From Bacteroidia bacterium (GTDB lineage Bacteria > Bacteroidota > Bacteroidia > J057 > JANWXU01), in NCBI GenBank assembly GCA_025057395.1, contig JANWXU010000010.1:1-55056 (forward strand): DNA of 55,056 nucleotides, in the 5' to 3' direction. Under the pieces are notes generated by a model. The model saw only the letters and a list, made by a program, of their open reading frames with translations, was not told the DNA's origin and made no database searches. The translations under genes and the position numbers were made by a program. Positions 3-13,404 of the stretch are shown here, piece by piece (positions within the stretch are counted from its first letter, which is position 1; each line of letters opens with the position of its first letter).

Positions 3-1544
3 TTTTTGCCGTTAGAGATAAGTGGGGAGGGGCCATGGAGGTTGCGGTATAGGGAGAATGGCATAGAGAGGGGTTTGGATGTGGGGGTAGGGGATAGTGG
101 GTGGGTAGTTTATCCGGAGGTGAATAGTAGGTATGAGTTGGTGGGTTTGGAGGATAAGTATGGATGTGAGGGGTATGTGGAGGGGAGCGTGGAGGTGCGG
201 GTAGAGGAGGGACCGTTTGTTCGTTTTGGGGTTGAGCGGTTGGAGGTCTGTGCGGGGGGTAGGGTGGAGATACCGCTTGAATTGGGGGGGGTAGGTCCGT
301 GGGAGGTGTTGTATAGAGTGAATGGGGTGGATGGGGGCGTTTGGCGTGTGGGTGGGAGTGGTAGCGGTGCGGTGGTGGTTGGTAGTGTTTGGGAGGAGGT
401 GTTGGGGAATAGGGAATATGAGTTGGTGGGGGTTCGAGATGGTCGAGGGTGTAGTAGGAGTGTGTCGGGTTTGTTAAGAGTGGAGGTTCGAGGTGGTTTG
501 GGGGTTCGTGTGGTATCGCAGCGGGAGGCGGGTTGTGCGGGGGGTAGCATAAGTGTAGTGGGTGAGGGGGGAAGTGGGTCATATGTTTATAAGTTAGGGG
601 GTATAGAGAATAGGAGTGGGAAGTTTGAGGGTTTGAGTGGTGGGCGGTATGAGTTGGAGGTGAGGGATGGTTTTTGTGTAGTTCGTAGGTTAGTGGAGGT
701 GGCTGTGGGTCGGAGTGTTTCGCTGAGTCGGTTGGAGGTGGAGTCGAGTAACAGCGTACGTGCGGTGTGGCCGTTGGTGGTTGGTGCAAGGAGTTATAAT
801 ATTCGGTATCGGGAGGTGGGGAGTGGTAGTTGGATAGTGGTGGAGGGTTTGGTGGGAGGGGAAGCTCGATTGAATGAGTTGAGCGGAGGCAAGACATATG
901 AGTTTGAGTTACAGGTGGTTTGCGAGAGTGGGGTATTGTTGGAGTGGAGTAGTGGTTTGGGGGTTACGACGCCGGGGGTAAGTTGTGAAGGGGTTGGGAG
1001 GGTATTTGTAGAGGGTGTAGGGAGTAATAGTGCGATGGTGAGGTGGGAGGGTGTTGTGGGGGCGGTGTGTTACGAGGTGTCGTATGGTCCGATGAATGTG
1101 GATGTGGAGTTATGGGATCGGTTTAGTTTGGTGCCGAGCTCTGGTCGTAGTGTGGTATTGAGTGGTTTAGTGAGTGGAGTGGAGTATGGGGTTCGCGTGA
1201 GGGCGAACTGTTCATTATGTTCGAGGGTAGTTGGGAATAGGTCGGTGTGGAGTAGGGTAGAGCGGTTTGTGACGTTGGGGTTGCGGGGATTTGTGGGGGG
1301 TATTGTGGATGCTGGGGTGAGGGTATATCCGAATCCGAGTAGGGGGTTAGTGGAGGTTGTTGGTGGGGAGCATTGGGGCGAGCTGAAGGGGGTAGTGGTA
1401 AGGAGTTTAGCAGGGCGGGAGTTGATGCGGGTGGAGGGGGGTGTTGATGGTCGAATAGACTTAAGTGGTTTAAGGGGAGGAGTATATTTGTTAGAGTTAA
1501 CATATGAGGGGGGTTTTGGGGTGGTGCGTGTGGTGATAGAGTAG
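3..1544 (+). CDS. Secreted Ig/FnIII-repeat protein with T9SS type A sorting domain, 5' end outside window
   Basis: The reading frame is open at the left edge, and the protein begins inside an Ig-like repeat, so this is the 3' part of a longer gene. About 510 residues are visible: two Ig-like repeats containing GPW and YELVG, a short SprB-like segment, two fibronectin type III domains (about 235-330 and 335-435), and a C-terminal sorting domain starting at VRVYPNPSRG. Family knowledge places such proteins on the cell surface or outside the cell via the type IX system. The second FnIII domain is clearly paralogous to that of the protein at 17998-20388 (shared YGP, W, RxNC and NRS/DRS-WS pattern). 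Base use is very odd: the coding strand is packed with G and poor in C (31 G against 6 C in bases 181-240). The protein has about 5 Lys but about 50 Arg. Exact role unknown. Confidence 0.85.
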   Translation, partial: FLPLEISGEGPWRLRYRENGIERGLDVGVGDSGWVVYPEVNSRYELVGLEDKYGCEGYVEGSVEVRVEEGPFVRFGVERLEVCAGGRVEIPLELGGVGPWEVLYRVNGVDGGVWRVGGSGSGAVVVGSVWEEVLGNREYELVGVRDGRGCSRSVSGLLRVEVRGGLGVRVVSQREAGCAGGSISVVGEGGSGSYVYKLGGIENRSGKFEGLSGGRYELEVRDGFCVVRRLVEVAVGRSVSLSRLEVESSNSVRAVWPLVVGARSYNIRYREVGSGSWIVVEGLVGGEARLNELSGGKTYEFELQVVCESGVLLEWSSGLGVTTPGVSCEGVGRVFVEGVGSNSAMVRWEGVVGAVCYEVSYGPMNVDVELWDRFSLVPSSGRSVVLSGLVSGVEYGVRVRANCSLCSRVVGNRSVWSRVERFVTLGLRGFVGGIVDAGVRVYPNPSRGLVEVVGGEHWGELKGVVVRSLAGRELMRVEGGVDGRIDLSGLRGGVYLLELTYEGGFGVVRVVIE

Positions 1545-1570
1545 GGGTTGTGGGAAAAGGAGAGGAGAGA

Positions 1571-1606: not shown

Positions 1607-1787
1607 AGAAGGGTCCTAATTCGTTTTTGATAAGGGTTAATAGGGATTGATATTCTTGGATGAGTTGTTGAATGACGTCTGAGGCGGAGCGGATTTGGGT
1701 AACAAGAGCGGCTGCTTGTCCTATTTCAAGTTCTCCCTCTTCTAGATTTCCTTCAAACATGCCTAAACGCGCACGCCCTTTATTCAA
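1605..1787 (-). pseudogene. C-terminal remnant of a nitronate monooxygenase / FabK-type flavin oxidoreductase
   Basis: The frame encodes about 59 residues containing GMFEGNLEEGELEIGQ, the typical end of NAD(P)H-dependent flavin oxidoreductases of the 2-nitropropane dioxygenase/FabK family, which are normally 310-360 residues long. A TAA stop sits directly before the first codon (TTG), and the next 180 bases upstream on this strand are AT-rich and contain no recognisable FMN- or substrate-binding part. I read it as a decayed or deletion-truncated gene. A separately expressed small protein cannot be excluded, but no start signal is visible. Its stop overlaps the T-run of the converging terminator. 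Confidence 0.65.
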
Positions 1788-1971: not shown

Positions 1972-3984
1972 TTATTGATTTTGTTTTTGAAGTGCTTGTT
2001 GGATAGATTGAAGCCCTGCATTAGCTTGAGGATGATTAGGCATTAGTTCTACTACTTTACGCCAAGCTTCCTGTGCTTGTAATAGCCTGCCGGTATTAAA
2101 ATAAATAGCTCCTAAATAATACCAATAATCTACCATTTTGGGTTCTAGACGAGTAGCATGTAAATAGGCTTCAATAGCCTTATCATATTGGCCTTTTAGA
2201 TTGTAACAAAATCCCAAATTTGACCAGGCTGTGGCGTATTTAGGATCAAAATAAACAGTTTTTTGAAGATTGTAAAAAGCGGAATCAATATTTCCCTTAA
2301 AGAAAGCTCTTTCTGCCCGTTTATAATAGACTTGCCCTAAAATTTCAGTGTATTTTACAATATCGGTATCGTGTGGGTTAATTCGATAGGCTCTATCCCA
2401 ATATTTTTCTGCGTTTACAGTATCGCCTAATACGTAATACATTTTTCCTAGATTTAATAAAGGGTTATAGAATTCAGGATATATTTCTACAGCTCTTTTG
2501 AGGTAAGGAATAGCCTGCCGCTGATATTCACGACGTTTTAAAGAATCTTTCTCCGCATCTGCTTTATTTAAAAAAGTTTGTGCACGAGATTTAAATATCA
2601 TCGCACTATTTGTAACCTGAACGTCACGGGCTACTAAAGTTTCGCTGTTATACCAATCTTTATTACGTTCAAAAGTTTTATACCAGCATAGCCATATCAT
2701 AATGCCCAAGCCCACATAGCTTATAACTTTGAGGGTAGGTGCTCTGAGGATATTACTAAGGCGACAGTAATAATAGTAGAAAATAATAGCTATTGTTGTA
2801 ACAAACCCCAATGAGCCTTGAAACACAAGGCGTTCTGCCATAAAACCCCCGATATTGATAAATATATTAGAAACAATTGAGATACTAGCATAAAAAAATA
2901 AAATACTCCAACCAATAGGATTTTTATGATATAAATATTTCAAGCCAAGTAGAGGAAATCCAAAATGAAGGATAAAAGAAAAGATAACAGAAGGGTAGTA
3001 AAGTTCTTTATAAGGAATTTCCTGATAAGAATAATCCCATGCTAGAGGGTGTGGCAATATTAAAAGGTGTAAATAATGGGTAAAAACATAAAAGATAGTA
3101 GCGTATTTTTGAGAGGTAGTTGCTTTGGAATAAGAATTATTGATCACGTCTACAATCTGTTCTCCCCCTAGACCAACAATATTATAACGGATTATTAAAT
3201 AAATAGATACCAGAACAAGGTAGGGCAGGGTTAAAAGAATAACTTCTTTGATTTTAGCACGAGTAAAACAAAAAAAAGTGATAGGAATAATAGCTAGAAA
3301 TGTAATAGCGTTTTCTTTTGAAAGAAGGCTAAGAAAAAAAAGAATAAAGGAGCCAACCCAATAGCTAAGGCGATAAGCCAGGTTAGTTTTTTCTAAGCCT
3401 TTGAATAAGGTGAAAAGTGAAAGTGTAGAAAGCAAAAGGGGTAATATTTCATCTCTTCCTTTAATATTAGCAACAACTTCTGTATGGATAGGATGAATTA
3501 AGAAAAATAAAGCAGCTAAGAAAGCGATGGGCAGGGGTAAGCAATACCGTACCAAGAAGAAGAAAATGCTAATTACACAGGCGGCATATAAAATTACATT
3601 AATAGCATGGCTGATCAGAGGGTTTTCTCCGCCTATAATTTCGTATTCAATAGCGAAGGTAATTTGGGGTAAGGGACGATACCTTCCGCCAGCAATAAGC
3701 TTTAAGTCTTTTTTGAGCCAGCCTGCAAAACTATCAGAAGTAAGAATATCGGGGATGCCAGCAATACCTTTTTTGGTAAAATCGTTATTATTAATTACAA
3801 TAGCGTCATCGAGTGCATAATCATTGAGTAGGGTATTTCCATAAAAAAGAAAACTCAGTAGGAAAAAAAGTACAGCTATAAACCCTAATGTATATTTGCC
3901 TAAAGGTTGAGAAACAGTTAAAGGAGTAATGATAAAGGGCTCTCTTTTAGGTGCAGACTTTTTTTCTACTTTTGAATTTTTCAT
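1972..3984 (-). CDS. TMTC-like (DUF1736) multi-pass membrane protein with C-terminal TPRs, copy 1
   Basis: 670 residues. The N-terminal two thirds is a polytopic membrane domain starting with a helix at about 31-50, followed by a DD pair (59-60), RYRPL (101-105) and HPIHTEVVANIKGRDE (164-179). These match eukaryotic TMTC proteins, which are GT-C fold O-mannosyltransferases, where the acidic pair lies in the first outer loop. The last 170 residues or so are TPR repeats (PEFYNPLLNLGKMYYVLGD and three similar units), probably periplasmic. It is the last gene of a three-copy tandem array, and its start overlaps the previous stop by 4 bases. Glycosyltransferase activity is inferred from fold and motifs; the donor and acceptor are not visible. 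Confidence 0.8.
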   Translation of the reverse strand: MKNSKVEKKSAPKREPFIITPLTVSQPLGKYTLGFIAVLFFLLSFLFYGNTLLNDYALDDAIVINNNDFTKKGIAGIPDILTSDSFAGWLKKDLKLIAGGRYRPLPQITFAIEYEIIGGENPLISHAINVILYAACVISIFFFLVRYCLPLPIAFLAALFFLIHPIHTEVVANIKGRDEILPLLLSTLSLFTLFKGLEKTNLAYRLSYWVGSFILFFLSLLSKENAITFLAIIPITFFCFTRAKIKEVILLTLPYLVLVSIYLIIRYNIVGLGGEQIVDVINNSYSKATTSQKYATIFYVFTHYLHLLILPHPLAWDYSYQEIPYKELYYPSVIFSFILHFGFPLLGLKYLYHKNPIGWSILFFYASISIVSNIFINIGGFMAERLVFQGSLGFVTTIAIIFYYYYCRLSNILRAPTLKVISYVGLGIMIWLCWYKTFERNKDWYNSETLVARDVQVTNSAMIFKSRAQTFLNKADAEKDSLKRREYQRQAIPYLKRAVEIYPEFYNPLLNLGKMYYVLGDTVNAEKYWDRAYRINPHDTDIVKYTEILGQVYYKRAERAFFKGNIDSAFYNLQKTVYFDPKYATAWSNLGFCYNLKGQYDKAIEAYLHATRLEPKMVDYWYYLGAIYFNTGRLLQAQEAWRKVVELMPNHPQANAGLQSIQQALQKQNQ

Positions 3985-6107
3985 TTTTGTTGGATAATTT
4001 TAAATACTGGCGCTTTAGGGTAAAGGGCATCTCTTGCCTGCTTGTGCTCCGGATTTATGCGAAGACACTCCTTCCAAGCCCAAACAGCAGAATCTTGCTT
4101 ACCATTATTAAAATAGCTCCAACCTAATCCGTACCAATGCTCAGCATTAGTTTTTTCATAGGATACTGCTAATTTGTAGTGATGTAGGGACGAATCGTTT
4201 CTGCCTACATTATAGTAGTACAATCCTAAATTGGAGTGAGCAGCAGCGTTTTTAGGGTCATACTGCAAAGCTTTATAGCATAATTGTATTGTTTTTTGAT
4301 ATTGTTGCAAAGCAAGCTCTTCTTTACCTTCCTTTCGGCTATGCTCTGCTTTTTTACCTAGTTCGTTTGCTTTTTGTATGTAAAGTCGGGCGATATTATT
4401 AATTAGGGTAGGATGTTTAGGGTTCACTTTATAAGCCTCCATGTAGATTTTTTCTTCTTCATCTAAGTACTTACCATCTTTATAAATTTCTTCTAAAAAA
4501 TAATATAACTGACCCATTATAATATAAGCTTCCATAAAGCCCTTATGTCTTTCAATAGCTTTACGTGCCCAAATAAGGCCTTCTTTAAGATAGGCCTTTT
4601 TTCTTTCTTCTACATTTTGGATTTTTTCCCAAGGCTCAGGCGGCATTGTTAGCTGTGTTTTGAGCTGGTCGGCATAAGCTGCATTAGTGCGAGCACTATG
4701 CGGGGCAGCGTATACGTCGTTAGCAAAAAGTTTGAGATTCCAAGCCCACTGTTCATTTCGTACAGATGTTTTCCAAAAGCACAAGCCTATGATTACAAAT
4801 AGAATCGTAATACTAAGTGCTATATTTTTTTTCTCCTGTCGATAATGTTCTAATATTTGAGTGAATATACCCCCCATTACGATAGCAAAACCAATAGATG
4901 GCTGAAAAAGAAAACGATCAGCTAGAAAGGCCCCCCCAATATTTAGTAGTATACTTGAAACAATAAAAATAGAAAGGTAATAAAATAAAATACCATAAGC
5001 GTAGATACTACGTTTAGGTAATTGCCAAAAGCCCCAACCTAGTAAAGCTGTATTGATAATTATTGCAGCCCAAACGCGAGGTTCATCTAAGTAGTAGTAA
5101 GGAATTTCGCTATAGGAATAGTCCCAAGCCTGAGGATGTGGCCAGATTACCAAGTGTAAATATTTAAGTAAGACGTAGACAATAGTAGCATACTTGTGAA
5201 TAACGCTGGGAGCATATAAAAATGCGTTATTCATTACATCATCGCTTGGCTCGAGGTTTAGGCCAATAGCTATACGAATAAGCAAATAAATGATAATTAC
5301 TACAACAATAGGCAGTGTATATCGAAGAATTTGCTTGTAATTTAAGGAAGTAAAAAAGTAAAGTGTTAGGGGCATAATACCTAGAAGCATTAATCCATTT
5401 TCTTTGGATAAAAGGGCAAGAAAAAACCACCCCCCTGCCCCTATTGCATATTTGTAATTTTGAGTTTGAATTGCCCTAAAAGTATGGTAAAAGGTGAGCA
5501 AAATAAACAGTAGTGATAGAATTTCGTCTCTGCCCTTAATATTAGCTACTGCTTCAACGTGAATAGGATGAATAGCAAAAATAAGAGTTGCTAAAAAAGC
5601 CCAAAGTGGCTTTTGGGGAATAAAATAATGAAAAAGTAGGAAATGTAGTAAAAATACTACTCCGCAATAAAGAACCACATTAATAAAATGGCTCATTTTA
5701 GGTTCGTGAGGATAGTAGTTTTTTTCGAATTCGGCAGGGGGCTTCATTTTACCCCATAATTGTTTTTCTATAGCAAAGGTTACGATAGAAAGAGGGCGGT
5801 AGCGCCCCCCTAAAAGTAGTTTAGGATCTTGATCAGGATTGTACCCTCTAAAGCTATCGTATCTTAAAATATTCCAAATGCCTGCAAAGCCCTTTTGGGT
5901 GTATTTATTTTGTTCAATTACTAAGCCGTCATCGACAGCATAGCCGTTATCCAACGTATTAGCATAAAAGATAAAGGAGATAATTATAAGAATGATAGAT
6001 TGCACTTTATAGCGTAGCCACCAAGGGGTAGGTGGGGGCAAGTTTATTGGTGCTACTCTTCGGCGTGCTGGTTGTTGAATTGGGGGCTTTTTTGTTTGTG
6101 TACCCAT
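3981..6107 (-). CDS. TMTC-like (DUF1736) multi-pass membrane protein with C-terminal TPRs, copy 2
   Basis: 708 residues, with the same plan as its neighbours: an N-terminal cytoplasmic tail rich in Pro and basic residues, a first membrane helix at about 35-50, a DD pair at 59-60, GRYRPL at about 101-106, and HPIHVEAVANIKGRDE in the next loop. The TPR tail covers roughly 500-700 and includes a charged insertion (EEKIYMEAYKVNPKHP and following). It sits in the middle of the array, 38 bases after copy 3 and overlapping copy 1, so the three are very likely co-transcribed. The copies are divergent in sequence but keep every conserved loop motif, which suggests three working enzymes with different specificity, not recent duplicates. 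Confidence 0.8.
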   Translation of the reverse strand: MGTQTKKPPIQQPARRRVAPINLPPPTPWWLRYKVQSIILIIISFIFYANTLDNGYAVDDGLVIEQNKYTQKGFAGIWNILRYDSFRGYNPDQDPKLLLGGRYRPLSIVTFAIEKQLWGKMKPPAEFEKNYYPHEPKMSHFINVVLYCGVVFLLHFLLFHYFIPQKPLWAFLATLIFAIHPIHVEAVANIKGRDEILSLLFILLTFYHTFRAIQTQNYKYAIGAGGWFFLALLSKENGLMLLGIMPLTLYFFTSLNYKQILRYTLPIVVVIIIYLLIRIAIGLNLEPSDDVMNNAFLYAPSVIHKYATIVYVLLKYLHLVIWPHPQAWDYSYSEIPYYYLDEPRVWAAIIINTALLGWGFWQLPKRSIYAYGILFYYLSIFIVSSILLNIGGAFLADRFLFQPSIGFAIVMGGIFTQILEHYRQEKKNIALSITILFVIIGLCFWKTSVRNEQWAWNLKLFANDVYAAPHSARTNAAYADQLKTQLTMPPEPWEKIQNVEERKKAYLKEGLIWARKAIERHKGFMEAYIIMGQLYYFLEEIYKDGKYLDEEEKIYMEAYKVNPKHPTLINNIARLYIQKANELGKKAEHSRKEGKEELALQQYQKTIQLCYKALQYDPKNAAAHSNLGLYYYNVGRNDSSLHHYKLAVSYEKTNAEHWYGLGWSYFNNGKQDSAVWAWKECLRINPEHKQARDALYPKAPVFKIIQQK

Positions 6108-6145
6108 GAACTTAATAAAATAAGATAAATAGATGCAAAATAAGT

Positions 6146-8176
6146 CTATTTTTGTAAACGTTGTAAAGCTGCCCTGGCAGATGTGTGATTAGGATTAATT
6201 TGTAATGCTTTTTGATAAGCCACTATTGCTTTTGCATTTTGTGCGGTTTCTCCTTCTTTTAAGCCATAAGCCCAACCTAGGCTATACCAATACTCAGCAT
6301 TTTGAGGCTCTATTTCTGTAGCCTTAGAAAAAGCATGTATTGCTTTGTCGTATTGACCAATTGCGCTATAGAAAACTCCTAGGTTGGACCATGCATTAGC
6401 ATGTTTAGGATCATAATTTGTGGCAATCTCTGCACTTTGGATAGCTAGGTTTAAATTTTTTTGATTATAGTATTCAATGGCTTTTTGATTATATAAGCGG
6501 CAGAGATTTTGTAATAAGGTAGGGTAATTGGGCTTATACTTGTAGGCTTGTAAGTAATATTTTTGAGCACTGTCTAAGTTATTTTTTAAAAAGTATGCTG
6601 TTCCTAGTTCCATAGCTGCTTGGGCATAGCCAGGATGAATTTGTATGGCTCTTGTAAGTAGGGGAATGGCTTGGTTGAGAAGTGCTTCTCTTTCAGGTGA
6701 ATTAGCAGGCATTTGATTAGCCTTTTCTACTAATTGCCCCCCCGCTGCGGCATTAGTTTTGGTGCTATTGGGGGCGGCAACCACATCGCGCATCACTAAG
6801 GTGTATCCATTGAACCAATCCTTATTACGACTAATTGTCTTTTGTAGGGCTAGAATAAGAGTTACTGCTAAAGTGATAATAACAGCCGTTGTAGAAAAAG
6901 AGCCTAGCTTTTGATTTTGATAAATATACCAAAAAATAGTGGCTAAAAATATACAAAAGCCCAAAGAAGCTTGAAAAAGAAATCTTTCTCCAATATAGCC
7001 ACCAATATTAATTACTAAATTAGAAACAATAAATAAAGAACCTACAAAAAACAAAATACTAAAAGCTAAAATTTTATCTAAAGAGATAGAAGAACCCATT
7101 TTATGATCCTTAAGAGTTTTTATAGCCCAAAAGATAGAACCTACGTATATCAAAACAGCTATAATAGCAATAGGATCGGTAAAATCTCGAAAAGGCATTT
7201 GAGCAAAGGAATAGTCCCAGGAAAGAGGATGAGGAAAGAATAGAAGTTGTAGGTAGAAAAGTAAAATACTAAAAATTGTAGCATATTTCACCCAAAAAGG
7301 CTTACCGTAATAAAAATTACTTAGAACATCTGTACTAGGAACACTAGGGTTAAAACCAATAAAATATAGGCGCCAACCTATATAGAAGATAAAAGTAATT
7401 AACAGGGGCAAAGCGGCAAAAGCAATTTTCTTCAGGTTTTGAGTTTGAAATATCCATAGGGTTAAGGGAAATAAAAATAATAGCATTATTCCATTTTCTT
7501 TTGAAAAAAGGGCTAGCAGGTAGGCAACGCCTAAGCCTATAGCTGTTTTCCATTTAGGGTTTAAGGCATAAGCAAATCCTAGATTTAATGTTAGGACGAC
7601 AAAAAGCATTGAAAGAAGCTCGTCTCTACCCTTGAGGCTAGCTACTACTTCACAATGAATAGGATGAACAGCAAATAAGAGAGTGGAAATTAAAGCAATA
7701 TAAGGATATTGTGGAAAAAGAAATTTTCTTTGCAATCGGTAGATTAACAAAAGAGTAATAGCAAAAAAAAGGATATTTATCTTGTGGCTTCGGTAGGGGT
7801 TAAAATCTAGGGGCGGAGGAGCATTTTTGGAAATTTCTCTTTCAATAGCAAAAGTTACAATTGCAAGGGGGCGGAAGTAACGTTTGGCAAAATCAGGAGA
7901 ATCTCCCCAAAATCCGTGAAAACTGTCTTTAGTAAGAATATCGGGTATTCCCTTGATACCATTTCGAGTGTATACATTTCCATAGGTATACATTTGGTCA
8001 TCGCCTGCATATTCGTGGTCATGGGTGTTGCCAAAAGCGAGTATAGCGGCAATTACTATGATTATTGCATGTACAAACCACTGGCTTAATATAGGGGGGG
8101 TAGCCTTTTTATTGGTAATTTGTATTTGATTGGCAGTTGAAGTGGATACCTTATTACTTTTAGATGATTTTGCCAT
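6146..8176 (-). CDS. TMTC-like (DUF1736) multi-pass membrane protein with C-terminal TPRs, copy 3
   Basis: 676 residues from the ATG at 8176. An in-frame ATG 30 bases further upstream also exists, but starting at MAKSSKSNKV puts the DD pair at residues 59-60, exactly as in the other two copies. Motifs seen: YAGDD, TKDSFHGF, RYFRPL, HPIHCEVVASLKGRDE, then further membrane helices and about five TPR units from roughly 490 to the end. It is the promoter-proximal gene of the array and diverges from the giant adhesin gene at 8404 across a 227-base region. A TAACTTTG-like -10 element is present on this strand at 8252-8259, but I see no good upstream partner for it. Confidence 0.8.
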   Translation of the reverse strand: MAKSSKSNKVSTSTANQIQITNKKATPPILSQWFVHAIIIVIAAILAFGNTHDHEYAGDDQMYTYGNVYTRNGIKGIPDILTKDSFHGFWGDSPDFAKRYFRPLAIVTFAIEREISKNAPPPLDFNPYRSHKINILFFAITLLLIYRLQRKFLFPQYPYIALISTLLFAVHPIHCEVVASLKGRDELLSMLFVVLTLNLGFAYALNPKWKTAIGLGVAYLLALFSKENGIMLLFLFPLTLWIFQTQNLKKIAFAALPLLITFIFYIGWRLYFIGFNPSVPSTDVLSNFYYGKPFWVKYATIFSILLFYLQLLFFPHPLSWDYSFAQMPFRDFTDPIAIIAVLIYVGSIFWAIKTLKDHKMGSSISLDKILAFSILFFVGSLFIVSNLVINIGGYIGERFLFQASLGFCIFLATIFWYIYQNQKLGSFSTTAVIITLAVTLILALQKTISRNKDWFNGYTLVMRDVVAAPNSTKTNAAAGGQLVEKANQMPANSPEREALLNQAIPLLTRAIQIHPGYAQAAMELGTAYFLKNNLDSAQKYYLQAYKYKPNYPTLLQNLCRLYNQKAIEYYNQKNLNLAIQSAEIATNYDPKHANAWSNLGVFYSAIGQYDKAIHAFSKATEIEPQNAEYWYSLGWAYGLKEGETAQNAKAIVAYQKALQINPNHTSARAALQRLQK

Positions 8177-8403
8177 AACCAAGCAAATATAATTTTCAAG
8201 GCGCAAATAGGAAAACCTAATTTTAGCTTTCGTTGCATATTTTTATAAATGCAAAGTTACAGCATTAAAAATGGTTAGAAATAATTCCTTAGTTGTAAGA
8301 AATTAAACTTCAATAAGTTGTACTTGTGTAAATAAAATTTTTAGCTTAGCTAGTATTCTTTCAGCTGCCTTTGTAACTTGTAAAATAAAAGATTAAACAT
8401 AAT

Positions 8404-11400: not shown

Positions 11401-13404
11401 AAGGAGCTTTTTGAAGTAAAAATAATTAGTAAGGCTGACCTAAGTTGTGCTCAAAGTCAAGATGGGGCTATCACTCTTCAAGTGCGAGGCAACGGAATAC
11501 CACCCTTTTTGTTTTCTATTGATGGAGGTATTAACACTGTTCGTACAGGTGAGTCACAGCTTACTTATACAGGACTTGATGCAGGAGAATACATTCCTTG
11601 GGTAAAAGATAGGCAAGGATGTATTGTACAATTACCACCTATAGTGGTTTCTGCTCCTTTGCCCCTTAGCTGGGACGTAAGTTACAGTGCTCCTAATTGT
11701 GTAGGAGTAAACAACGGAAAAATTATAGCCCTTATGAGTGGTGGAACCCCTCCTTATACTTTTATTTTATCTGACCAAAGTGGAGTAATAAAAACTCAAG
11801 ATAAGGGAGAGTTTCTAAATTTAGCACCGGGTGAATACGGGCTAGAAGTAAAAGATGATAAGGGTTGTAGCCTTAAGCTATCAGAATTCATAGACCTAAG
11901 AATTTTAGATCCCCTTTCAATGGAAGTAGTAAATATTCAGCCGCCTATTTGTGCAGGGCAGGCTACAGCCAGTATACAATTAAAAGTCAAAAATGCCCGA
12001 GCTCCATGGAAGGTGATGGCTACGCCAGGCAACCAAATTTTTGAAAACACTGAAAACTTAACAGCCTTAAAAGCTGGCAAATACTGGCTGGTTTTACGAG
12101 ATGCTTCTGGTTGTGAATATACTCTAGTAGACTCTGTAAATATTCCTTCTCCTTTGCCATTAAAATGGGAAAGTTTTGTAGCTACCTCTCCTGCTTGTTA
12201 TAATGGTGCGGATGGTTCTTTAAAGGTAAATTTAGCCAATGCCAATTCGCCTGTCACTTTTACCTTAAAAACTTCAGAGGGACAAGAAGTAACTCAAAGT
12301 GAGGGCTATTTTGAAAATTTAAAAGCAAGTAGATATTTACTTAGAGCAGTAGATGTAAAAGGATGCCAGTTGGATACTACTTTCATTCTTGTGAATCCAC
12401 TACCCATAATCATTTCTCCCTCTGATACACTGCTTTGTGTTGGTCAGACGGGGGGCAAACAAATTGTGCCCTTAGTAGCTAAGCAAGGTAGTACTATTCT
12501 AAGGGAGGGGAGTTGGAGTGGAGCTGGGGTAGAAGCCAATAGTGCTCGCTTCAATTCCTCATTAGTAAACGATGCGCCGGGCAAATATACTGTACAGTTT
12601 ACTTCGTCTAAGGGTTGTATTGCAAATGCTACTATTCAAATTATTAATTTGCAGGTTCAGGCTACAGATACAGTATGCTTTGGGAGCGAAAATTATAAGC
12701 CACCTTTGCCTAATTTGGTAGGAGGAAGTTGGCGAGCAGGTAATGCTGCTGTGCAAATAAATCCCCAGACAGGAAATGTGGAAAATATTAAGGAGCTCAG
12801 GAGTGATAATTACCTGCTAATATATGAGGCAGATGGATGCCAAGATACTCTGGTACTTTATATTTTGCCTCCTATAAGCGGAACTATTTTAACGACTCCT
12901 AGTGAAGACGCTCTTTATCCAAACCAACCTATTACGATGGGTATAGTTACTCAAGAAGAAATTCGCTCTGTATTTTGGGATGGTGGTATTTTGCATCGGG
13001 AAGATGATACCAGTAGTAGAAAAAATCCTGTTTTTACTTATCCAGAAAAAGGGAATTACACCGTAAAGGTTTGGATTACTAATACAAGAGGTTGTAAGCA
13101 ATTGCTAGAAAAACAACTTGCTATTAAATGGCTGCTAGATCCTTTTATTCCTAATGTAATTACTCCTAATGGGGATGGGGTTAATGATGGGGTGGAATTG
13201 AACTTTAGTTCTTTTGTTCGTTTAACTTTTACTGTTTACGATGCTTGGGGTAAACAAATTTTTCAAACTCAAGACCCTAAGGGAACATGGTTTCCTAGAA
13301 AAGAAGATTTAAGTCCGGGCACGTATTATTACTTGCTTCAGTTTGAAAATCCAGAAAATAATCAAAAACATACTAAAACTGGAAATATCGCTATAATTTA
13401 TTAA
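8404..13404 (+). CDS. Giant secreted PKD/SprB-repeat adhesin with gliding-associated (T9SS type B) C-terminal domain
   Basis: 1666 residues. Signal peptide 1-26 (ends VKAQ). Residues 27-255 form a Cys-rich N-terminal domain resembling MAM or cleaved-adhesin domains. Four PKD-like repeats follow (each starting near NAGPDQVIC or similar, about 260-605), then nine SprB-like repeats of about 80 residues (pattern C...DG.I...GG.PPY.... near 620-1370), further Ig-like segments, and a CHU_C-type sorting domain containing PNVITPNGDGVNDG. Such proteins are exported by the type IX system and act as surface adhesins or gliding components. At least 12 D(S/T)(A/I/L/V) triplets are present, the known Bacteroidota O-glycosylation sequon. 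It diverges from the TMTC-like array. The ligand is unknown. Confidence 0.9.
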   Translation: MVAIHIPLYTFLIALLYLVSTYCVKAQCVVFHENFNALSNTNTGGWQLSQRGDACHAKWYISDREPGRPTSTPCTDYNWDCLDKTLHIGQNDNFLCQDLTDPRRCGDCGAWQIESSVGCPRLNYSTQAEAISPVIRLRSATDSIKIEFDFVAGLRGACGSPTGDYAQVFFRTSTNNGASFGPWINLMPLNSPCLPRTSSCPGARNEVSVITNLAKVLALSSDINALQLRFTWNSYDDCNGVRLTTLAVDNIKVTAFPRGGTLQVVNAGGDQFRVCQRSTWLNAATPGGTWSQLSGPAATIQSPNQASTFVTGLLPNNTYLFEWKIGTACDVVVITTNSGTPPNVNAGPDQVICTNNTTLNATAPAGANPRGWRILQQPAGASATFSNPSAPNTRISNLNQEGDYVLEWLAFSGCCVGRDTVIITVKQEAPNVFAGNDTAICGESLLLRAAPVPATVVAQWSILEQPAGSNASIQEPSKATTSVNNLIAGEYKFLWQVNDDCNNRVLKDTLIVKVTTPSFSFSVGQDSTTCLSTLSLWATPLSSGLSGNWLVLQQPDNNNPAIISESNKPNARIFLPTEGVYKLLWKVTDGTCTLQDTLTINYDKNSFRLDTASLLRPICTSNNGEIRLRAISSSDLTKLTIAPNIGEREGGFIFKRLPEGTYVFEAENKEGCKTTLKVKLESIQPNIAISEIETQPASCRKDNGALKIEAVGGVEPYTYQITHPIQQSNTTGIFTNLSAALYWIEVSDRNGCKAKASFDVPTKDFEIKEAQLRMPKCHGSNDGQIVVSATGATEPFLYTLEPGNITNTTGIFDRLKAGSYTVTVLDRNTCSIIVPLVLEAPLPLNLKLSLQAPGCTTTDGKILFSATGGTPPYTCSLLPSAGQFTDTAFINLPAGAYSLKLQDQKGCTLDTLIALNPPSDIQITISPNDIIPASCKGRADGQILIRAHSMVPIRFYSIFPEVGNNLQNGIFTDLPAGKYLVTVTNAVGCKFSKEVIVPEKELFEVKIISKADLSCAQSQDGAITLQVRGNGIPPFLFSIDGGINTVRTGESQLTYTGLDAGEYIPWVKDRQGCIVQLPPIVVSAPLPLSWDVSYSAPNCVGVNNGKIIALMSGGTPPYTFILSDQSGVIKTQDKGEFLNLAPGEYGLEVKDDKGCSLKLSEFIDLRILDPLSMEVVNIQPPICAGQATASIQLKVKNARAPWKVMATPGNQIFENTENLTALKAGKYWLVLRDASGCEYTLVDSVNIPSPLPLKWESFVATSPACYNGADGSLKVNLANANSPVTFTLKTSEGQEVTQSEGYFENLKASRYLLRAVDVKGCQLDTTFILVNPLPIIISPSDTLLCVGQTGGKQIVPLVAKQGSTILREGSWSGAGVEANSARFNSSLVNDAPGKYTVQFTSSKGCIANATIQIINLQVQATDTVCFGSENYKPPLPNLVGGSWRAGNAAVQINPQTGNVENIKELRSDNYLLIYEADGCQDTLVLYILPPISGTILTTPSEDALYPNQPITMGIVTQEEIRSVFWDGGILHREDDTSSRKNPVFTYPEKGNYTVKVWITNTRGCKQLLEKQLAIKWLLDPFIPNVITPNGDGVNDGVELNFSSFVRLTFTVYDAWGKQIFQTQDPKGTWFPRKEDLSPGTYYYLLQFENPENNQKHTKTGNIAIIY

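Follow-up and report, generated by a model that had tools for sequence, protein, structure and literature searches.

Strand asymmetry in base composition is usually taken as a faint mark that replication or transcription leaves across the whole genome, and in bacteria the coding or leading strand is enriched in G and T relative to C and A. Other precedents come from quite different settings. The vertebrate mitochondrial ND6 gene, encoded on the light strand, has a G/T-rich and C-poor coding strand that pulls the composition of its protein along. In mammalian immunoglobulin switch regions the non-template strand is G-rich and C-poor over kilobases, and traces of recombination lie close by. Giant bacterial surface-protein genes are very long and repetitive, and their oligonucleotide usage is atypical of the genomes in which they reside, but we know of no report of a strand asymmetry in such genes as large as the one described here. 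This asymmetry is found in a 4.08-Mb draft assembly (244 contigs) of a Bacteroidia bacterium (GCA_025057395.1). The window covers the full length of contig JANWXU010000010.1 (55,056 nucleotides), which we call C11; other contigs are designated in the same manner.

The skewed gene lies at the very start of C11. It is the 3′ part of a T9SS surface-protein gene (positions 3 to 1544, plus strand, 513 codons), whose open frame is truncated at its 5′ end by the start of the contig. The coding strand of this fragment (3 to 1541) consists of.18 A,.07 C,.48 G and.28 T, and its third positions hold G at.52 and C at.03. At the 260 fourfold sites there are 144 G, 69 T, 41 A and 6 C (G.55, C.02), as expected from the preliminary description of a plus strand packed with G and poor in C at synonymous sites. 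The sample count given there (31 G and 6 C in bases 181 to 240) is likewise correct, as is the statement that the remainder of the window is ordinary. GC skew in 500-bp windows is mostly within +/-0.3 along the contig and ranges from +0.73 to +0.79 within positions 1 to 1500, and fourfold G is.04 to.18 in all other large ORFs. At a scale of 1.5 kb the skew of positions 1 to 1500 is 0.754, compared with a mean absolute value of 0.083 and a 99th percentile of 0.32 among 2,700 such windows of the genome. Similarly, the synonymous log-odds per codon of the gene is +0.48 versus -0.85 +/- 0.16 (maximum -0.40) for ordinary genes, and a two-state hidden Markov model of synonymous codon usage places the entire fragment in the skewed state (log-odds +246). 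The extreme G-over-C bias of this coding strand is thus confirmed. It is also local to the gene rather than replichore-wide, given that the skew of C11 drops from +0.74 to about 0 past 2 kb, and the ordinary composition of the neighboring DNA rules out a replication-strand origin. Further along, the window contains three consecutive related genes of the O-mannosyltransferase/TPR type (TMTC-like) on the minus strand (1972 to 8206).

The protein encoded by the C11 fragment has a fibronectin type III domain at residues 336 to 402 (positions 1008 to 1208; PF00041, 38.3 bits, exceeding the cut-off) and a T9SS type A C-terminal sorting domain at residues 441 to 512 (positions 1323 to 1538; TIGR04183, 29.5 bits against a cut-off of 23). 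A second model for the sorting domain, PF18962, scores 20.9 bits, which is under its cut-off of 27. With these two domains, the product belongs to a well-known type of secreted or surface-anchored protein, and its sorting domain is that expected of T9SS type A cargo. The coding region is followed by an untranslated tail of 31 bases (1545 to 1575) with 16 G, 10 A, 5 T and no C, a G count that has a probability of about 1e-5 relative to ordinary tails. The skew ends at an intrinsic terminator (1566 to 1607), in which a 17-bp hairpin (1566 to 1602, -24.1 kcal/mol) is followed by TTTTT within a T-rich tail. A simple terminator scan missed this hairpin, and it was found by folding.

The preliminary description had raised the prospect of a chimeric join near this boundary. 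An assembly fork does exist, but it lies 200 bases past the point where the skew ends. Positions 1705 to 1781 of C11 are identical over 77 bp to the start of contig C104 (L340:1-77), and the two contigs diverge after 1781. The gene broken at the fork (1608 to 1787, minus strand) is separate from the skewed gene. Only its last 60 codons, forming its 3′ end, are retained in the window, while C104 carries a complete version. We take it to be nitronate-monooxygenase-like by motif resemblance, and a Pfam search of the fragment returned no match. The join at 1781/1782, where a k-mer fork separates 1-1781 from 1782-55056, could reflect either an assembly error or variation between strains.

The observation is stronger than the preliminary description could have known, since the bias recurs in other genes of the genome. 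About 1.7 Mb (overlaps included) of the 4.08 Mb was examined, such that counts of skewed genes are lower bounds, and the 870 ORFs from this sequence provide a background with a mean fourfold G of 0.123 (sd 0.058). Even more extreme than the C11 gene at fourfold sites is a T9SS gene of 3,540 codons on C144 (C144:26-10645), with G at.67, C at.02, T at.19 and A at.12 (n=1754). Skew that is weaker or confined to segments occurs in a gene on C60 (C60:6201-7934; fourfold G.45, C.04), in one that closes C82 (.41), in part of a repeat gene that opens C241 (.35) and in a C7 gene of the AAA-ATPase_like/PDDEXK_9 type (.32), which becomes G-rich toward its 3′ end. Because the C144, C60 and C82 proteins all terminate in sorting domains, as does that of C11, the small class of sorting-domain genes anticipated earlier does share the bias. 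PKD, fn3 and sorting domains are still recognized in the skewed genes. Nearly all of the skewed loci are located at contig ends, and in C241 and C54 the break is probably explained by tandem repeats at the contig start.

This class is set within an unusually large collection of giant T9SS-type proteins (e.g., on C167, C88, C133 and C180), with frames of up to 7,941 codons. The C11 protein alone matches 178 places in its own genome, many of them in open frames of 2,000 to 7,900 codons, and nearly all of the matches examined are ordinary in composition. Indeed, most giant T9SS paralogues are unbiased, including genes that are equally long. Several structural features of these loci were also noted. 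The C241 locus (L188:1-1601) consists of a 762-bp unit repeated in tandem; copies one and two differ at 4/762 bases, and each copy is part skewed and part ordinary. The 3′ end of the C144 gene (L032:1-77) forks into two contigs, C194 (L183:1-77) and C90 (L184:1-77), and the loop of the terminator hairpin is inverted between the two (CCAATTTTTGG versus CCAAAAATTGG). These variants suggest either that the 3′ end was duplicated or that the terminator was the site of a rearrangement. The AAA-ATPase_like/PDDEXK_9 gene is present on C7 (L051:11954-13674, with a frameshift near 13336), on C239, at the ends of C56, C175, C20 and C23, and on C228 in a copy of ordinary composition. Several contigs break inside the first 75 codons of this gene.

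The limits of the skewed regions bear on the earlier proposal that the bias follows the transcription unit rather than the reading frame. The C11 gene agrees with this proposal, as its C-free tail runs up to the terminator. In the C144 gene, however, the skewed state sets in about 12 codons past the likely start, from where it lasts through the stop codon (log-odds +2241). The skew also ends about 23 codons ahead of the stop codon in C60 and about 40 codons ahead of it in C82, where a return to A-rich codons can be seen directly in the sequence. In addition, the two-state model identifies bounded skewed segments inside otherwise ordinary genes on C241, C54 and C217. Given the ends within coding sequence in C60 and C82 and the extension to the hairpin in C11, the extent of the skew approximates the transcription unit without coinciding with it, and the link holds only loosely.

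The kind of base change can be deduced in part from codon boxes that exchange purines and pyrimidines at the third position. The purine share in the Pro and Thr boxes rises from 0.32 in ordinary genes to 0.84 in C144 (p = 9e-99), 1.00 in C11 (p = 5e-9) and 0.73 in C60. Therefore, pyrimidine-to-purine changes are needed, unless the ancestral genes already differed. The mechanism offered by the preliminary description, C to T plus A to G change, fails on this point because these transitions are unable to raise Pro and Thr third-position purines, and transversions are required. The share of CTR among R-ending Leu codons falls from 31% to 4% despite CTG ending in G, leaving TTR at 95 to 96% of such codons in the skewed genes, and among Ser codons AGT is preferred to TCG. 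Furthermore, the third base in C144 depends on the first base of the next codon (junction dinucleotide z up to 8), a dependence that is not significant in C11. The effect acts at the level of composition and is not purely one of codon choice, as is shown by its presence at all three codon positions and in one untranslated tail. Adaptation to tRNAs or codon usage is disfavored by the avoidance of CTG, the neighbor dependence in C144 and the C-free tail of C11. ARAGORN identified 6 tRNAs in the sequence examined, which is too few to test codon adaptation.

Two further expectations about these genes were less durable. The protein composition had been thought to be pulled along by the bias, and the reported 5 Lys and 50 Arg of the C11 gene are exact (alongside 97 Val and 93 Gly). 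However, Lys/(Lys+Arg) is equally low, at 0.10 to 0.13, in giant T9SS genes with ordinary base composition, and a drift from Lys to Arg is thus not a sign of the skew. What does fall with skew is Ile/(Ile+Val), at.09 to.26 versus.32 to.47 in the ordinary giants listed. Codons for Thr, Pro and Ile are scarce in the C11 gene, and Thr makes up 1% of its protein, compared with about 10 to 14% in most of the other giants listed. The suggested G-quadruplex potential does not hold up against a synonymous-shuffle null, with 3 motifs observed versus 4.6 +/- 2.9 in C11 and 5 versus 11.4 +/- 4.2 in C144. GGGG runs are mildly in excess in C11 only (38 versus 30.9 +/- 2.8). Selection for G-quadruplexes was set aside for lack of a motif excess.

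No comparable bias emerged from other genomes. A search of public genomes with a G-ending sorting-motif pattern revealed no comparable skew among the matches listed (at least 118 loci), where the largest 1.5-kb skew is 0.39, the largest ORF skew is 0.32 (in a piece of 111 codons) and no ORF of at least 150 codons exceeds 0.28. When 3.5 kb of C144 was searched as DNA against 396 Bacteroidota genomes, the only matches outside its own genome were 30 to 50 bases long and in unskewed regions. Ten homologous loci in two genomes of the same order are also unskewed. The N-terminal part of the C144 protein found no relatives in a scan of genome contigs, and among 22 genomes of the order it found only itself. 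For the C11 protein, the best matches are paralogues in its own genome (31 to 36% identity), ahead of those elsewhere in the order. No other member of the family of the source genome was present among the relatives sampled, and a search with a pattern of C-free runs returned mostly AT-rich tracts. Within these limits, the phenomenon appears to be private to the lineage. A literature search found no description of gene-local G-over-C strand bias of this kind.

The bias is extreme and confined to particular genes or segments, and the data show that passing from ordinary composition to the skewed state needs transversions plus A-to-G and C-to-T changes, a spectrum derived from composition. As the leading explanation, which we hold tentatively and with somewhat less than even confidence, we propose that a gene-local, strand-specific mutation pressure moves the coding (non-template) strand of a few giant T9SS genes toward G while removing C. 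The source would be mutational and tied to the orientation of transcription. Perhaps the non-template strand is repeatedly exposed in R-loops or as a single strand and then undergoes error-prone repair with G as the outcome. The resulting changes would be filtered by purifying selection acting on the protein, and domain recombination might spread segments among paralogous genes. A more pointed proposal, which we regard as unlikely, is that a gene-targeted process rewrites the non-template strand of selected giant surface genes to G, transversions included, and would constitute an undescribed strand-specific mutator acting on adhesins. Several facts sit poorly with strand-specific mutation pressure. 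No bacterial process known to us replaces T and C by G on a single strand, and the sharp boundaries within the coding sequences of C60 and C82 misfit a simple transcript-wide process. Also counting against it are the absence of a 5′-to-3′ gradient of synonymous bias over the 10.5-kb C144 gene and the equally long genes of the genome that are unaffected.

The main rival, which we judge possible but clearly less probable, is selection on the composition of the transcript or non-template strand, in which long genes benefit from being C-poor and G-rich, for example by lacking the C-over-G stretches on which Rho loads or by promoting R-loops or elongation. Rho is described as anchoring at cytidine-rich rut sites of nascent RNA (PMC6797219). 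No 80-nt window with more C than G exists in the C11, C144 or C60 genes, whereas ordinary genes over 800 amino acids have such an excess in a mean of 42% (minimum 15%) of their windows, although this lack follows trivially from the skew. The escape of the first codons and some terminal codons would be expected if initiation needs A-rich sequence. Yet such selection would have to act effectively on almost all synonymous positions of a gene 10 kb long while sparing paralogues that are just as large. Avoidance of mRNA structure was rejected as its basis, given that predicted structure is lower than in an ordinary-usage recoding in C11 but not in C144 (-36.4 versus -34.4 kcal/mol per 150 nt) or C60. 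Moreover, a survey of 1,550 prokaryotic genomes indicates that C and U are usually favored where selection acts on the fourfold sites of transcribed strands (PMC4844684), which is the reverse of the direction seen in the skewed genes.

Horizontal acquisition or domain import from a donor with such codon usage would account for one unusual usage being common to whole genes and to domain-sized segments, including those bounded within otherwise ordinary genes on C241, C54 and C217. We consider it doubtful, since the closest protein matches are paralogues of the same genome, the surveys of Bacteroidota genomes and sorting-motif loci above yielded no biased homologue, and the intensity of the bias (fourfold G) differs between genes, from.35 to.67. 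To our knowledge, no genome has a fourfold G of.67 with C of.02. Transcription-associated deamination, producing C to T and A to G on an exposed non-template strand, fits the depletion of C, the replacement of Leu CTN by TTR and the loss of A in favor of G. As a sole cause it is contradicted by the Pro and Thr purine shares, which these transitions are unable to alter. In addition, T at fourfold sites drops from.41 to between.19 and.27 in C144, C11 and C60 where a rise is expected, and boundaries fall inside coding sequence. Deamination is therefore very improbable except as a component. Lower still in our estimation is an error of sequencing or assembly, for instance G calls from dark cycles close to contig ends. 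The concentration of skewed loci at contig ends, the fork in C11 and poly-G/poly-C tracts resembling two-colour sequencer dark-cycle errors (C77:1-49, L167; C60:1234-1314, L165) would suit an artefact. However, the C144 gene stays biased for 10.5 kb while its reading frame is unbroken and its domains recognizable, and the skew of C11 stops 200 bases before the fork. Synonymous sites carry most of the bias, and shifts of the C-to-T type are among the changes, unlike what G overcalling would give. Base-calling error is rejected for C144 and C11 on the grounds that the changes are concentrated where they least harm the protein, and the continued recognition of sorting, fn3 and PKD domains likewise indicates that the pattern evolved.

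Skewed and ordinary paralogues of one family occur together in a single cell and so provide built-in controls for studying the origin of strand bias. If the cause is mutational, as in the strand-specific pressure that we favor, these genes point to a strand-specific mutator that is not yet known; if it is selective, they reveal an unexpectedly strong constraint on long transcripts. Their positions also suggest that such genes may drop out at the contig ends of short-read assemblies.

None of the known systems noted at the outset matches this combination of features. In ND6 the pattern extends to the whole strand of a replicon and is accounted for by deamination in the course of replication, whereas here single bacterial genes are involved and purines rise. 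Switch regions are noncoding and rich in G clusters, whereas the skewed genes are coding and have G-runs about as their codon content predicts, with no G clusters beyond composition by the synonymous-shuffle null. Diversity-generating retroelements make adenine-directed changes copied from a template repeat and have a reverse transcriptase nearby; the replacement of C, T and A by G along 10 kb does not look like their work. Giant surface-protein genes as a class are an imperfect match as well, because most giants in this genome are ordinary in composition. The bacterial GC/AT skew linked to replication and transcription is alike in direction, with an excess of G and T, but in the present case it is single genes or segments beside ordinary neighbors that are skewed, the asymmetry is far stronger (0.75), and transversions are required to produce it.
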